From positions 1-24,973 of the IMG/VR virus record IMGVR_UViG_3300007541_004710: 24,973 nt of DNA; one strand, 5' to 3'. Below, piece by piece: positions 3,001 through 22,099 of the stretch. Within the stretch, counting starts at the first letter, position 1; every line of letters begins with the position of its first letter. Position numbers and translations under genes: made by a program. The notes below the pieces were generated by a model. The model made no database searches. It saw nothing but the letters and a program-made list of their open reading frames with translations, and was not told the DNA's origin. The DNA is from a virus.

Positions 3001-6000
3001 CGTGCGGATTGAGTTATTCGATCCGAACGATACAAGTGACGACCGTTTGAAGTTGCGGATGCTTGCCTCTGTGGACCCGCTGCTGAACAGCTTCTACGTA
3101 GAGATCATGCAGGACAAGTCTTCGGCTTTCTCGCTCATCAATCAGACTCACCGGGCGTTGGAGAAGTCAATGTGGAACACTGCCTCCGCGTTTGAGATGC
3201 TGCGCAAAAACCCGGAATGGGTCAGGAATCTGGCGGACAACTACCGGGGCTTAGTGAGTGCGGAAGCTGTGGCCCGGGTGGCGCAGGACGCCGGACTCTC
3301 GCCAGATGTCCCGCGCCTGTCGCCCGGAGTGGCGATTTACTCCGAGGCGGCAACGATTGCGCAGGCGCTCAAGGTCAACACGATAGAGGGTGGCATCGTT
3401 GGTGCCGGTGCCTTGGGGGTGCGGAACAAACTCTTCGGAGAGACTGTGATCGACAACGTGCCTGCCTCCGCCGAAACGGTTGCACGCATCTCGGATCAAC
3501 TTCGCGTTGCGGACGGTCAAGCAATGGTCAACACGACCAACCCGATTCGGGGCGACGTGCTGTATTCCCGGCGCTCTGACAAAGTCACGGAGGTTCCGGT
3601 CAACAAATCCCTCTGGATCATGCCGGACGGGCGAGTTGTTGACGTGGAGCTTGAGGGGGCGCTCCCGGATGGAAGTGCTTTCTCTCACGGGATATTCGTC
3701 AAGCAATGGGTTTCTGCCCGTCTGAACGCCGGCTTCTGGCCGGATAAGCGTGAGGTTGAGTTGGCGCTCAAGTTGGATCGCCGTGCCAAACAGTTGATGG
3801 AGGAAGATCCGACGCTTGCAGATTTTGACGCAGAAGACGTCGAAGTCCGGTCCGGTGAGTTTGAATCCTTGTCCGACGATCCCGAGATCCAGATGATGCT
3901 TGAAGGCGAGTCTGGCGAAAATCCTTTTGCTGGAGACCTCGCATACAATCAGGCGGCAGTTGAACAAGGCTGGGTCAGAGTCAAGCCGGCGGCGTTTGCC
4001 ACCGAAAAGACTCTCTTCGCGGACACCGTGAGCGGGCGGTTGCCTGCTGCGGTCAGTAAAGTGCTGCAAGAGTCTGTCAAGAAAAACGGATACACGTTGA
4101 ACGTGCTTCGGGGTGGCCCGGCCAACAACCGTGTAGCGTTCACCCGACCCGCTTCCGGGGTGCAATTTATGCGGATGCTTCCCGGACAAGACGAGTGGAA
4201 GAGCCGCCGCTCGGTTCCCCAAGACCCGAACCAACCACTGCCCGCACCTGACCTGCCTACGCGGCGTTTCGCTGACCGGGCGGCCGAGGCAGATGCGCGG
4301 CTTCGGGAAATTCGGGACCGCCGCCCTGACATCGCTTTCCGCGAGCCGCAGTCGCTCGACGACCTGACCGATGTGGCAAGCGGCAAAACGGACGCGCAAC
4401 TGGATGCCCGCCTCGACGAGATGCTGGACGCCACGACGGAGTCCGGCATCAACTCGTTGGTGGTGGACGGCATCGAGGCGCTGCGACGGGCGCAGGACGC
4501 GGGCGACAATGCCCGGATGGAACTGGTGCTGGACCGACTGGCGAAGTTCGGGACCAGTATCGGCCAACTGCTGCGTCAGTTCGCGTTGTTTGGGGACAAG
4601 ATCAAGCCCCGTAACCGACTGGAGATTGTCAAGCTGTGGGTGCAGCGGGACGGGCGCAAGCTGACGCCGCAGATGGAGGCTGATCTCAAGACCTTGATTG
4701 ATGCGGAGGACGCGGCCCGACTGGCGCATGAATCGGCAGTCAAGGCAGCCATCGCAAACCCGTCTGACAGGACTGGCATCAAGGCGGCATTCGTGGCCGA
4801 ACAGGCGCACGACCGGGCATTCCGGCAGATGCAGGCCCGCGTCCGGTCGATGCTGCCCCGCACCAAGGTCAGTCAAGTTCCGGCCGACCTGCTGACGCTC
4901 ATTCAAGGCAACCTCCTGACCCCGCTGTCCACGCTGCGGAACGTGTTCGGTAACTACGTCAGCTATCCACTGCGGCTGGCATCCCGCGTCGTCGGCAGCC
5001 CGCTTGACTGGGCGATCAGCAAAACCACCGGGCGGGACCGGAAGATCATGGCTCCGTCACTGCGCGAACTGGGCTGGTTCGTTCAAGGCTCCGTGCGCGG
5101 TCTGACCAAGGCCAAGGATGCGTTCCTGATCGGTGCGGCGGAGGACGTGATTGTCGGGGAAGCCATCCGTGGGTTCAACCCGGTCCAGTCGTTTGTCGAT
5201 GCGTTCTCGGGGAACCTGCCGGTTGACCCGAACACTGGGCGCGTCCCGAAACGTGACCGGGTCGCCAAGCTGCTTGAGGCGGTGGTCGGCGCTGCCCCGG
5301 AGATGATGCTCCGCTCGTTGTCAGCGTTGGACGAACTGGCGAAGGAAGGCTTCCGCGCGGCGCGACTGGCGGAGGAGACGAAGCTCCGTGGGTTGGAGCG
5401 CGGCACGACGGAGTTCGCCTCCGTCGAACTGGCGGGTGCTCGCAATCTGCGCAAGGGACTGGTGGACGAGGACGCCCGGCAGGCGGCAGAAGCCTCGGCG
5501 TTGCAGCAGACATACCAAGACCTGTCCACCGCCGCGAAGCTGCCGCAAGCCGTCGATAACGCCCTTGCCGGCCTCGGTAAACTCGGACCGGCGATCCGCT
5601 TTGCGTATCGTGTCGGAACCAGTGTATACCAGCGAACCCCGGCGAACCTGTTCGTCGAGGGCTTGAAGTTCGCCATGCCGTCGTTTGGGCTGGCACACGC
5701 TGCGGTCAAGGCCGGGCAGGGTGATCGCCGGGCGGCGATTCAGTCGGCGGGCTACGCGATGATCGGTGCGATGATTCACGCGGCGTTTGACGAACTCGTC
5801 GATGAGGGTGTGGTCTCCGCCGGACCGGAGGAGTCTGACAAGCTGCGCCGGCTGCAAAGCGAGACCGGCATGGGCTACTTCCGGCTGAACGTCTCCGCGT
5901 TGCAGCGCCGCCTTTCTGGCGACGCCGCTGGCGCGGCATTCCGCGACGGCGATGAAACGGTCCGGTTGGACACGCTCGGCGTTCTGGGCTTCACGCTGTC

Positions 6001-11416: not shown

Positions 11417-11466
11417 ACGTAGGTTTAAGGTAGAAGGCCCGTCCCGGCGGCCAGACCGGGACGGGC
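11417..11466 (-). promoter_or_regulatory. Strong hairpin plus leader motif before the DNA polymerase gene
   Basis: A perfect 11-base inverted repeat (GCCCGTCCCGG at 11437-11447, CCGGGACGGGC at 11456-11466) with an 8-base loop lies between the DUF1599-like gene and the polymerase gene. On the minus strand it is followed by ACCTTAAACCTACGT (11431-11417). The same pairing of a CGTCCCG/CGGGACG hairpin with a nearly identical 15-mer occurs at 18056-18104. There is no U-tract, so this is not a classical terminator; attenuation, RNA processing or protein binding are all possible. Confidence 0.6.
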
Positions 11467-17016: not shown

Positions 17017-17468
<452 letters not shown>

Positions 17469-17487
17469 CCACCCCCTTGGCACTGGG

Positions 17488-17532
17488 CCGAAACGAAAAT
17501 AGGCCGCGCCCCCGATGGCGGAGACGCGGCCT
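17488..17532 (-). terminator. Rho-independent terminator for leftward transcripts
   Basis: A perfect 8-base inverted repeat (AGGCCGCG at 17501-17508, CGCGGCCT at 17525-17532) reads on the minus strand as a GC-rich stem followed by TATTTTCGTTT. It would end transcripts coming from the 21.5-17.7 kb module and insulate the integrase region from them. Confidence 0.7.
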
Positions 17533-18055: not shown

Positions 18056-18104
18056 ACGTAGGGTTAAGGTTCGCGTCCCGACCGCCGTCAGACGGCCGGG
18101 ACGC
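18056..18104 (-). promoter_or_regulatory. Large hairpin plus leader motif, second copy of the cassette
   Basis: Arms GCGTCCCG (18073-18080) and CGGGACGC (18097-18104) enclose an inner GCCGTC/GACGGC stem, with GTCAGAC at the apex. On the minus strand ACCTTAACCCTACGT (18070-18056) follows. This differs by one base from the 15-mer before the polymerase gene, which also follows a CGTCCCG/CGGGACG hairpin. It lies just after the VWA gene stop and could act as a terminator, attenuator or RNA-binding site. Confidence 0.6.
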
Positions 18105-19677: not shown

Positions 19678-19740
19678 AGTGAGTGAGTGAGTGAGTGAGT
19701 GAGTGAGTGAGTGAGTGAGTGAGTGAGTGAGTGAGTGAGT
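19660..19740. repeat. (GAGT)15 tetranucleotide repeat and (AGTCAT)3 filling the ATPase-VWA gene gap
   Basis: Fifteen uninterrupted copies of GAGT run from 19681 to 19740, the last base being part of the ATPase stop codon. They are followed by three copies of AGTCAT (19660-19677) that supply three alternative in-frame ATG starts for the VWA gene. The whole intercistronic gap is thus repeat, with no Shine-Dalgarno sequence. Long pure tetranucleotide tracts are hypermutable in bacteria and typical of phase-variable loci. Confidence 0.97.
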
Positions 19741-21128
19741 TACACCTTCAAGGCTTTGGCCCAGCCGCTGATCGCGGCTTTGGACTCGCTCACCATATCA
19801 CCCGTGTCTCCGTCCCACAGGGCGAGGCTGTCTGTCAGACAGTCGGCGAGCGCGGCCTTCACGGCGGGAACCGTAGGCTCCGCCGCATGACCACACGCCC
19901 GGCGTAGGATGCGGAACGAACACGGGAAGGCGATCCGCCCGGCCTTCACCGCTTCCCGGCTTTCGCCGACCAGCATAGCGAAAGCCTCGGCGAAACCCGG
20001 CACGTTTCCGCTCACGCCGAAAGAGTTGACAATATCTGCCGCGATGCTCGCGGCAGTGTCCTTGTCCCAGTCGATGCGAACATGGTGCCAGCGGTCCCAG
20101 AACGCCTCGACCGGGCGGTGCATTGTGAGGTTTGTGGCCCCTACAATGTGGAGGTGAGTCATCGGGGATTCGATGACTTCAAGCGCCCCGCTGGCGTCCA
20201 TCTTGCGGGTTCGCATCCGGTAAACCCTGCCTGACGGGGTGTTCACCCCGGTCAGGAACGTGAGCAGCCACTCTTGCGCCTTTGGCGAGAGCCGGAGCAC
20301 TTCATCGAGGAGGAGCAGGACTGTCTGCCCAGACCCTGCGGCACGAACCGCCTCAGCCATAACGCCGTCTACGACGGCGAACGATCCCTTCCCGTCCGGG
20401 ACGGGATTTCCCAGCAGGGTCGAGACTTCGTCGATGTCATCCGAACAGCCGTGTTCGAGATACCGGTCGTAAGACCGGCCGAGTAGCCGGATGGTGTGGC
20501 TCTTGCCGAAGGACGGCGGACTGCAAAGCAGCACCGGGTCCACGTATGACTCGACCCCGGCCTTGTAGAGCGGGGCGAGCTTGTCCATGATTGCGTTACC
20601 GCTTGCGGCAGCGGCGATCACCGGGATGCGAGCCGCCGTGGCTTTGTCTTTAGCGACGAGGTCGATCAAGGCTTCTGCCGCCTTGGTCTGGTCGTAGATG
20701 TCCCGGATTTCATCCGCCATTGCCTCCAGTGCCGGATCGACCGTGGCCGCGAGGATGCTCTTGACGGCATCCTCGTCTACGCCAGCCGGATTCGACGCCA
20801 GTTTGGCGTCTACGACGGCGGCAATCGCCGCCTCAAAGATCCCCAGAGCGGGAGCCGGGGCAGCCGGGGCAGCCGGGGCAGCCGGGGCAGCCGGGGCAGC
20901 CGGGGCGATTTTGAACCCCTTGGCATCGACCTTTCCGGCGACCCAATCCCGGAGGATCGTGTCAGACTCGTCTTGCCAGACGACATTGAGGTTTTCCATC
21001 ACGGCGTTCGCCACGATGACCCCGTCAACACCGGCAGCAGTTAGCCACGCTCGGACAGCGCCTCGATTGGCGCTTGTGATTGGGGTCGAACGGTCACCGA
21101 TGATTGCGATTGCTTGTGCAGTAGTCAT
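19740..21128 (-). CDS. MoxR/CobS-like AAA+ ATPase
   Basis: The 462-residue product has an N-terminal domain (1-70), an Ala-Ala-Pro repeat linker (about 75-92), a helical region, then a AAA+ module with Walker A PPSFGKSHT near 203-211, Walker B LLLLDE near 271-276, sensor 1 VGATN near 327-331, an arginine-finger candidate in WDRWHHVR and a sensor 2-like SFRILRRACGHA. This is the MoxR/CobS type, which partners with VWA proteins. The partner gene lies directly downstream across the GAGT repeat. The start has AAAGGAAG about five bases upstream, one of the few clear ribosome-binding sites here. Likely a chaperone-like remodelling motor; the substrate is unknown. Confidence 0.87.
   Translation of the reverse strand: MTTAQAIAIIGDRSTPITSANRGAVRAWLTAAGVDGVIVANAVMENLNVVWQDESDTILRDWVAGKVDAKGFKIAPAAPAAPAAPAAPAAPAPALGIFEAAIAAVVDAKLASNPAGVDEDAVKSILAATVDPALEAMADEIRDIYDQTKAAEALIDLVAKDKATAARIPVIAAAASGNAIMDKLAPLYKAGVESYVDPVLLCSPPSFGKSHTIRLLGRSYDRYLEHGCSDDIDEVSTLLGNPVPDGKGSFAVVDGVMAEAVRAAGSGQTVLLLLDEVLRLSPKAQEWLLTFLTGVNTPSGRVYRMRTRKMDASGALEVIESPMTHLHIVGATNLTMHRPVEAFWDRWHHVRIDWDKDTAASIAADIVNSFGVSGNVPGFAEAFAMLVGESREAVKAGRIAFPCSFRILRRACGHAAEPTVPAVKAALADCLTDSLALWDGDTGDMVSESKAAISGWAKALKV
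20854..20907 (-). repeat. Six tandem copies of a 9-base repeat encoding Ala-Ala-Pro
   Basis: GCCGGGGCA is repeated five times exactly, with a sixth copy differing in its last base, encoding an Ala-Ala-Pro linker between the N-terminal domain and the AAA+ part. The unit is a multiple of three, so copy-number change would alter linker length without breaking the frame. Confidence 0.95.
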
Positions 21129-21159: not shown

Positions 21160-21168
21160 AGCATGATT

Positions 21169-21217
21169 ACTCCCTGCTGGACACTGTCTGTCAGACAGTG
21201 CCCAGACGGGAGGAGTC
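21169..21217 (-). promoter_or_regulatory. Long imperfect hairpin with a perfect 19-base palindrome core
   Basis: CACTGTCTG (21182-21190) and CAGACAGTG (21192-21200) form a perfect palindrome around one T. Outer arms (ACTCCC on the left, GGGAGGAGT on the right) extend the pairing. It lies seven bases after the small basic gene and about 40 bases before the ATPase start. A terminator-like or operator role is possible. The core contains the GTCTGTCAGAC word also found at 19830 and 22036. Confidence 0.6.
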
Positions 21218-21223
21218 ATTGGC

Positions 21224-21517
21224 TTACTTCGACTTCGGCGAGAAGATCACAGTCACCGAACCGGACTTTTCCGTATGGCGGAGCGATTTCAGAGTATGTG
21301 TTTTAAGCAGTTCCCGGGTGACTTCCCGGCCGGCCACGGCGAGGTATTTGCGGAACGTCCGCTTGAGGTCTTGACCTTTTAGGCCGGTTGCCTTTCCGAA
21401 TTCCCGTTGGGACAACACTTGCCCCTTTGTTCCAGTTTTGAGATGGCTTGCCTTGTGGCATACTTTGTCGGTGAAGAACAGTGAAGCGGCGTTGACGAGT
21501 AGTGTGGACTTTTTCAT
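21224..21517 (-). CDS. Small basic protein with possible HTH, unknown function
   Basis: The 97-residue product is strongly basic. A central stretch (LSQREFGKATGLKGQDLKR, about 35-53) could form a helix-turn-helix, followed by a helix with RKYLAVAGREVTRELLK and a beta-rich C-terminus. I do not recognise the family. It is the first gene of the leftward accessory module, behind a leader with three or four hairpins, so a DNA-binding regulator of the module is a reasonable guess. The ATG is preceded by GAAAACACAC, similar to the start context of the two short genes near 18 kb. Confidence 0.65.
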   Translation of the reverse strand: MKKSTLLVNAASLFFTDKVCHKASHLKTGTKGQVLSQREFGKATGLKGQDLKRTFRKYLAVAGREVTRELLKTHTLKSLRHTEKSGSVTVIFSPKSK

Positions 21518-21542
21518 GTGTGTTTTCTTTCGTGAGGGTTAC

Positions 21543-21636
21543 GGGATGGGCGGTTCCACCCCCGTCTGACCAGTCTTTCGACTGGCCAGAAGGGGATGCC
21601 CCGACGTGGCCGGGGCAGATCCGACGTGGCCGGATC
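21543..21636 (-). ncRNA. Structured leader with tandem hairpins, possible cis-regulatory RNA
   Basis: In the leftward transcript four hairpins precede the 97-residue gene. Two are adjacent: GATCCG/CGGATC (21618-21636) and TGCCCCG/CGGGGCA (21597-21617), with different stems but the same 7-base loop (ACGTGGC on the plus strand). Next is a 10-pair stem (21566-21589) that pairs fully only on the minus-strand RNA, with one G-U pair and a GAAA tetraloop. Last is a 7-pair stem near 21543-21562. Conserved loops on changing stems suggest an RNA or DNA hairpin recognised by a protein. No known riboswitch class is recognised. Confidence 0.5.
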
Positions 21637-21644
21637 AGAAGGGG

Positions 21645-21667
21645 TTGACGGTTGACGGTTGAGACGG
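21645..21667. repeat. Short tandem TTGACGG repeat
   Basis: TTGACGG occurs twice in tandem (21645-21651, 21652-21658), followed by the related TTGAGACGG. TTGACG resembles a -35 box, but I see no good -10 box at the right distance on the plus strand. It could be an operator repeat at the edge of the control region. Confidence 0.5.
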
Positions 21668-21727
21668 TGAGTAATGGTTGCCCGGCGTTCGCCCCGGGTG
21701 CAGCTTCTGTCACAAGCCAATGCGGTT

Positions 21728-21862
21728 ACCCTCTGTGAGGGTCGGAGCCGGCAGTCCCTCTGCTAATCGGCCCTCGCTCGGATTCGGGCAATTCCCCTCG
21801 GGGAACGCTGGTCTTTGGCTCCGGTGGTTTCCCTCGTTAAATACTCATCTACGGATGAGTAT
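21728..21862. other. Hairpin-rich intergenic segment, candidate structured RNA
   Basis: ACCCTC/GAGGGT (21728-21742) is followed by a 7-base long-range stem CGGAGCC (21743-21749) with GGCTCCG (21817-21823). Inside are GCAG/CTGC (21751-21763) and TTCCC/GGGAA with loop CTCG (21792-21805). Just beyond is a perfect 9-pair stem ATACTCATC/GATGAGTAT with a TACG (UNCG-type) loop (21841-21862). The nested layout recalls a multi-branch RNA, but it is not a tRNA: no T-arm or anticodon arm fits. Open frames across it look spurious. Confidence 0.4.
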
Positions 21863-22099
21863 AGAACGTTTGGGCTGGCACACGGCTACGGCACCCTATC
21901 CTGTCCGTCTGACGGGGCTGACGTTTTCCCGCTCGGCAGACTGACCAGATCGTCCGGGACGCTGGTGAATTTTTGTTGTCGCCTTGTCATCGACGACGCC
22001 AACCATTGAGCCACAAGAGACAACATTTGTCAACAGTCTGTCAGACAACCTAAAGGTTGAAATGTTGATTTCGCCAAATTTTCCGCGTTTTATGTGTGC
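21863..22099 (+). promoter_or_regulatory. Upstream region of the terminase operon, weak promoter with palindrome
   Basis: No gene is visible. TTGTCA (22027-22032) could be a -35 box, with a weak TAAAGG at about the right spacing. The palindrome GTCTGTCAGAC (22036-22046) would then lie between the two boxes, where a repressor could block transcription of the packaging operon. The -10 match is poor, so this is tentative. Confidence 0.3.

Follow-up and report, generated by a model that had tools for sequence, protein, structure and literature searches.

A three-hairpin array in the predicted 5′ leader of a leftward AAA+ phage operon is probably a selected RNA element

Gene content and features of the locus

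The window, meaning the whole stretch of DNA that was analyzed, is a virus record of 24,973 bases with open reading frames cut at both ends. A leftward block contains genes for a 97-aa protein, a 462-aa AAA+-like protein, and a 521-aa protein, and then integrase, helicase, exonuclease-like, and DNA polymerase A genes; a rightward block contains the small and large terminase genes. Twin hairpins occupy the gap between the two blocks, adjoining the 97-aa gene and beside terS. Two overlapping relatives, L020 and L019, were read by eye as a single phage with the gene order of the window. The features considered below, all on the minus strand, are as follows:

22004..22033, minus strand, predicted leftward promoter TTGACA-N18-TCAATG, matched in form ahead of the leaders of L020 and L039
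21518..22003, minus strand, long 5′ leader of the leftward operon (~480 nt), between the predicted promoter and the ATG at 21517
21618..21636, minus strand, hairpin a, GATCCG-GCCACGT-CGGATC in leftward RNA, in which inner G-U and C-G pairs leave a CAC triloop
21597..21617, minus strand, hairpin b, TGCCCCG-GCCACGT-CGGGGCA in leftward RNA, 9 pairs, CAC triloop, −15.9 kcal/mol
21557..21598, minus strand, hairpin c, 18 pairs, GAAA loop, one internal mismatch, sharing two bases with hairpin b; L020 counterpart at 1005–1051
21518..21541, minus strand, A-rich start-site stretch TAACCCTCACGAAAGAAAACACAC immediately 5′ of the ATG, similar to TAACCC stretches
21224..21517, minus strand, 97-aa gene that opens the leftward operon, ATG at 21517; 42% identical to a 106-aa protein of L020
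21163..21219, minus strand, a second hairpin, of three parts, in the gap separating the 97-aa gene from the 462-aa gene; 22 pairs, internal loops, folding at −33.5
19740..21128, minus strand, 462-aa AAA+ ATPase-like gene, weak Pfam AAA match; 44% identical to its L020 counterpart
18073..18104, minus strand, hairpin after the 521-aa gene and before a small ORF, 14 pairs, 2 of them G-U

The 97-aa protein had no Pfam or PHROG match, and its structure model was too poor for a fold search (mean pLDDT 56); by eye, it reads as basic with a helix-turn-helix-like stretch. The Pfam AAA match of the 462-aa protein (E 0.007) was below the cut-off, and this protein had no match among phage records. A scan of a genome collection with the AAA+ alignment yielded no relative, and the corresponding scan with the terminase alignment yielded three contigs from Verrucomicrobia MAGs, so the terminase relatives of phages with this operon include these contigs. 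The leftward operon is probably the early operon of a tailed phage.

Several other sequence features of this block were recorded. Within the AAA+ gene, a gcagccgggg tandem repeat at ~20855–20907 encodes an Ala-Pro-rich stretch. Upstream of the integrase gene, GGTGGACC/GGTCCACC sites are clustered in both orientations in the region 17060–17470: seven of the window’s ten lie at 17066–17382 and an eighth at 17460. These are possible recombinase or regulator sites. A 14-pair hairpin on the minus strand at 17501–17532 is followed by TATTTTCGTTT and, as judged from sequence, resembles a terminator for the leftward segment.

Strand and structure of the leader

The original prediction placed the hairpins in leftward RNA, as part of a leader for the leftward gene module, and both points agree with the arrangement of the predicted promoter. 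L020 shares the promoter block in both position and sequence and L039 shares it partly, and looser forms were found in L035 and L036; a scan of viral contigs with the block recovered only the already known relative. A sigma-70 scan did not list this promoter because its −10 element departs from TATAAT. In the window and L020, the pieces TGGCGTCGT and GCGACAACA are also common 3′ of the promoter, at nearly equal offsets. The three-hairpin array is ~360–440 nt downstream of the predicted promoter and ~40 nt upstream of the 97-aa ATG, and on this arrangement the leader itself would be transcribed.

In the leader, folding was stronger on the sense strand than on the antisense strand. A 489-nt piece of the leader had a z-score against shuffles of −3.9 for the sense strand and −2.1 for the antisense strand, and the 170 nt leading up to the ATG scored −4.2 to −4.3 and −0.1 to −0.5, respectively, in two runs. 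For the array alone, sense z-scores were −6.5 in the window and −6.4 in L020, and the antisense strands also folded better than shuffles (−4.7 and −3.9). Hairpin c in leftward RNA has G-U at 2 of its 18 pairs and one U·C mismatch, and folds at −33.1 kcal/mol versus −24.2 kcal/mol for the other strand; thus, the predicted stem at 21566–21589, with its GAAA loop and G-U pair, does favor minus-strand RNA, but it is longer than had been described (21557–21598), with a second G-U pair and the mismatch. G-U pairs fell on the sense strand in 10 of 11 listed hairpins, which had themselves been chosen by sense folding.

A long, structured leader might be expected of a ligand-sensing riboswitch or an attenuator, and ligand binding had been among the original suggestions; however, the searches gave this reading no footing. 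Rfam returned no match above cut-off on the window, and nothing on the leader or on L020 reached cut-off; at E up to 10, the sole match on the array was a chance-level one to nhaA-II (RF03038; E 0.88, 22.2 bits where the cut-off is 70.4). No intrinsic terminator (GC stem plus U run) was found on the minus strand within 21518–22003, and the leader has no conserved single-stranded core. A riboswitch and an intrinsic attenuator were rejected on the Rfam result and the lack of a U-tract terminator in the leader, and we consider this class of explanation extremely unlikely. A literature search covering titles and the openings of abstracts recovered no paper on this leader.

Compensated differences between the twin hairpins

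The plus strand reads TGCCCCG-ACGTGGC-CGGGGCA (21597–21617) and GATCCG-ACGTGGC-CGGATC (21618–21636), exactly the two adjacent hairpins with an identical 7-base loop that had been described, and both stems are perfect. Together they form a 20-nt tandem repeat with a spacing of 20, GCCCCGACGTGGCCGGGGCA and GATCCGACGTGGCCGGATCA, whose copies agree at 16 of 20 positions and are identical over the inner 13 bases. All four differences amount to exactly two base pairs, both compensated, as the earlier claim of compensating stem changes had it; by our own arithmetic, random placement of four changes would give such compensation with a probability of ~3e-4 (C(6,2)/C(20,4)/9). Plain tandem duplication explains the similarity of the copies but leaves the pairing-up of all four differences unexplained.

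The 7-mer ACGTGGC was not itself enriched in the window (7 observed versus 6.2 expected), and adjacent hairpins sharing an identical loop of at least six bases were absent from 200 first-order shuffles of the window. No other such twin was present in 916 kb of collected loci, where the match in L001 is a copy of the window. A search of viral contigs for the twin loop matched 17 loci, all of which were inspected 60 bases to either side; by eye, all 17 looked like unrelated, mostly coding repeats, and none was the twin element. The twins fold better in leftward RNA (−15.9 and −7.4 kcal/mol) than in the opposite strand (−12.8 and −4.6 kcal/mol) because the loop GCCACGU closes by a G-U and a C-G pair, leaving CAC (ViennaRNA).

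The array in a relative

The leader of L020 contains three hairpins within ~80 nt followed by a start-site stretch, in the same place as in the window and with different letters; the last 170 nt before its ATG had z-scores of −5.1 (sense) and −3.3 (antisense). The first two hairpins have neither loop nor stem letters in common with those of the window. The third is the top-scoring hairpin in a scan of the 34-kb L020 record; compared by eye with that of the window, it retains a GCCA/UGGU piece with one G-U pair, and about six other pairs are changed on both sides. The 97-aa gene and the array occur together in this one relative only, and the two sequences are too few for a formal covariation test. 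What is kept in the relative is the three-hairpin anatomy, not its letters or the common loop.

The loops of the L020 array are CAAA, UCUAC, and GGA, and the common loop of the window is absent, so the loop is not supported as a conserved recognition motif and was rejected as one. Because the L020 loops differ, the identical twin loops are better explained, in our inference, by a tandem duplication that happened recently than by binding. This difference also bears on an RNA operator, in which the twin hairpins would bind a dimer, for example of the 97-aa protein, and repress its own translation. The 13 inner bases common to the twins, the position just upstream of the 97-aa gene, and the basic protein with its helix-turn-helix-like stretch (a by-eye reading, beside a poor structure model) would all suit such an operator. 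However, L020 differs in both inner sequence and loops in spite of a 106-aa homolog with 42% identity, and the start codon lies outside the hairpins; we regard an operator as unlikely.

Hairpins recur elsewhere in the operons of both phages, in the slot before the AAA+ gene and in that after the next gene. In L020, the former is filled by a hairpin that is again in three parts but differs in sequence (20 pairs, −32.1), and a hairpin at 4700–4752 lies directly 3′ of the gene matching the window’s 521-aa gene. TAACCC stretches resembling TAACCCTCACGAAAGAAAACACAC come after hairpins at 1058 and 1497 in L020 and at 18066 in the window. On the minus strand of the window, a TAAACC/TAACCC..ACG stretch and then an ATG come after each of two hairpins, that at 11437–11466, just 5′ of the polymerase gene, and that at 18073–18104, just 5′ of the small ORF.

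The twins might alternatively be a DNA-level feature or mutational by-product, arising by tandem duplication and templated quasi-palindrome repair, or forming an operator or packaging site by the terminase gene, with no selection on RNA. The units are nearly identical, 20 bp apart, and beside terS, and templated repair can produce paired changes in a single event. Against this stand the sense-strand folding bias, the G-U pairs, the equivalent array in L020, and the hairpins 5′ of other leftward genes, and we judge a DNA-level origin improbable. Because L020 keeps the anatomy with changed letters and sense folding exceeds that of shuffles, the array is probably a real RNA element, a selected, structured 5′ leader element of the sense strand; the earlier claim of selected hairpins thereby gains from both the compensated stem changes and the shared three-hairpin anatomy.

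Folding and hammerhead cores among AAA+ relatives

Relatives of the AAA+ gene were collected in 21 contigs, several of them near-duplicates. Among the 18 start-site slots tested, a set without L028, L033, and L040, sense folding was lower in z-score than antisense folding in 13, and six had a sense z of −2.5 or below. L038, L041, L031/L034, L032, L039 (by z), and others had z-scores near zero or positive, with no unusual folding, and the stretch immediately 5′ of the AAA+ gene in L029 was likewise unremarkable. Sense folding is not general among the relatives, since only these six slots reached −2.5 and several relatives were near zero or positive. Two short hairpins occur just 5′ of a start codon in L026, L126/L136, and L127; between L026 and L126, the hairpin pairs preceding the AAA+ gene show compensated differences, a comparison made by eye as MAFFT could not align these hairpins. 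A long C run beside the AAA+ phage operon in L026 (~1705–1755) is possibly an assembly artifact.

A hammerhead or hammerhead-like core was present in the leftward AAA+ operon of 8 of the 21 contigs, perhaps representing three independent groups; all Rfam hammerhead scores were below gathering cut-offs. A type III core on the minus strand of L039 (~2680–2765; L128 2108–2165, plus strand) lies ~20 nt before the AAA+ ATG, and L040, a near-copy of L039, has it too; the L039 descriptor match comprises the core, a cleavable NUH, and stems I–III-type pairing in three helices (6, 3, and 5 pairs). The L128 copy scored 25.1 bits against RF00008 (E 0.0012 in 141 bases; gathering cut-off 48.5), and the L039 core was not reported by whole-record Rfam searches at E up to 1. 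In L035 (1–59, minus strand; the end of L134), a type II match cut by the contig end falls directly after the AAA+ gene, at 33.1 bits versus a cut-off of 37 (E 2.6e-6 per record). A Hammerhead-II-like three-way junction lies upstream of the AAA+ gene in L027 (3419–3484), L029 (841–905), L030 (3192–3256), L131 (1931–1992), and also L132, with a bulged base in stem III and its GAAA and CUGANGA elements ordered as in type II; 2 of its 16 pairs co-vary across four sequences, and Rfam gave no match to it in L027, L029, L030, or L131. A bulge-allowing descriptor, written after these sequences had been seen, matched three times when both strands of the loci were scanned (1.8 Mb), in L027, L030, and L039 and always within a leader of this kind; four shuffled sets gave no match.

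Proposed role of the array

The array points to post-transcriptional control of the AAA+ operon in little-studied phages. Transcription would start near 22.0 kb and run leftward through the array, which would end ~40 nt before the first start codon. The array most likely acts structurally: the long third hairpin may be a processing or protection site, for example for an RNase III-type cut, by which the mRNA 5′ end would be fixed or shielded. The two short hairpins may reinforce this shielding and prevent the A-rich start site from pairing. On the sequence evidence, we give about an even chance to this mechanism, that is, mRNA processing or stability together with an open start site.

That relatives carry hammerheads suggests that the message of this operon is cut. 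A broader and improbable reading is that the leader and junction slots of the AAA+ operon dock interchangeable RNA-processing devices, the window array being an undescribed class of processing or self-acting RNA that does the same job; if this were true, self-cleaving ribozymes would serve in some phages and hairpin arrays in others.

Comparison with known systems

The mRNAs of T7-type phages carry RNase III processing hairpins in intercistronic regions and leaders. As in the window, they sit shortly before start sites within an operon of several genes and consist of a long, nearly perfect stem interrupted by internal loops; an RNase III-type reading is suggested because the third hairpin and the intercistronic hairpins fit in length and internal loops, with extended hairpins of about two helical turns at 21557–21598 (18 pairs) and 21163–21219 (22 pairs). 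In the window, however, twin short hairpins precede the long one, and cleavage is putative.

The put RNAs of HK022, as described in PMC9378689, are ~70 nt long, have two stem-loops, and lie downstream of early promoters, putR being ~270 nt from its transcript start. In shape, putL and putR resemble the two adjacent stem-loops downstream of the window’s predicted promoter, and a put-like element in the early leader would act through nascent hairpins that bind RNA polymerase and allow read-through of later terminators. The window differs in its third, long hairpin and in the hairpins before later genes. To our knowledge, neither of these has a put counterpart, and a put-like role is considered very unlikely. 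The nhaA-II RNA resembles the array in its two-hairpin shape, on a weak match of 22.2 bits versus 70.4.

Hammerheads in phage intergenic regions are already known (Perreault 2011, PMC3088659). Matches to types II and III are present in the same operon of the related phages L035 and L039, respectively. The window differs in that neither its leader nor its array contains a CUGANGA/GAAA core. The cores in the relatives raise the question of whether a ribozyme can replace the hairpin array in cutting or shielding the message.
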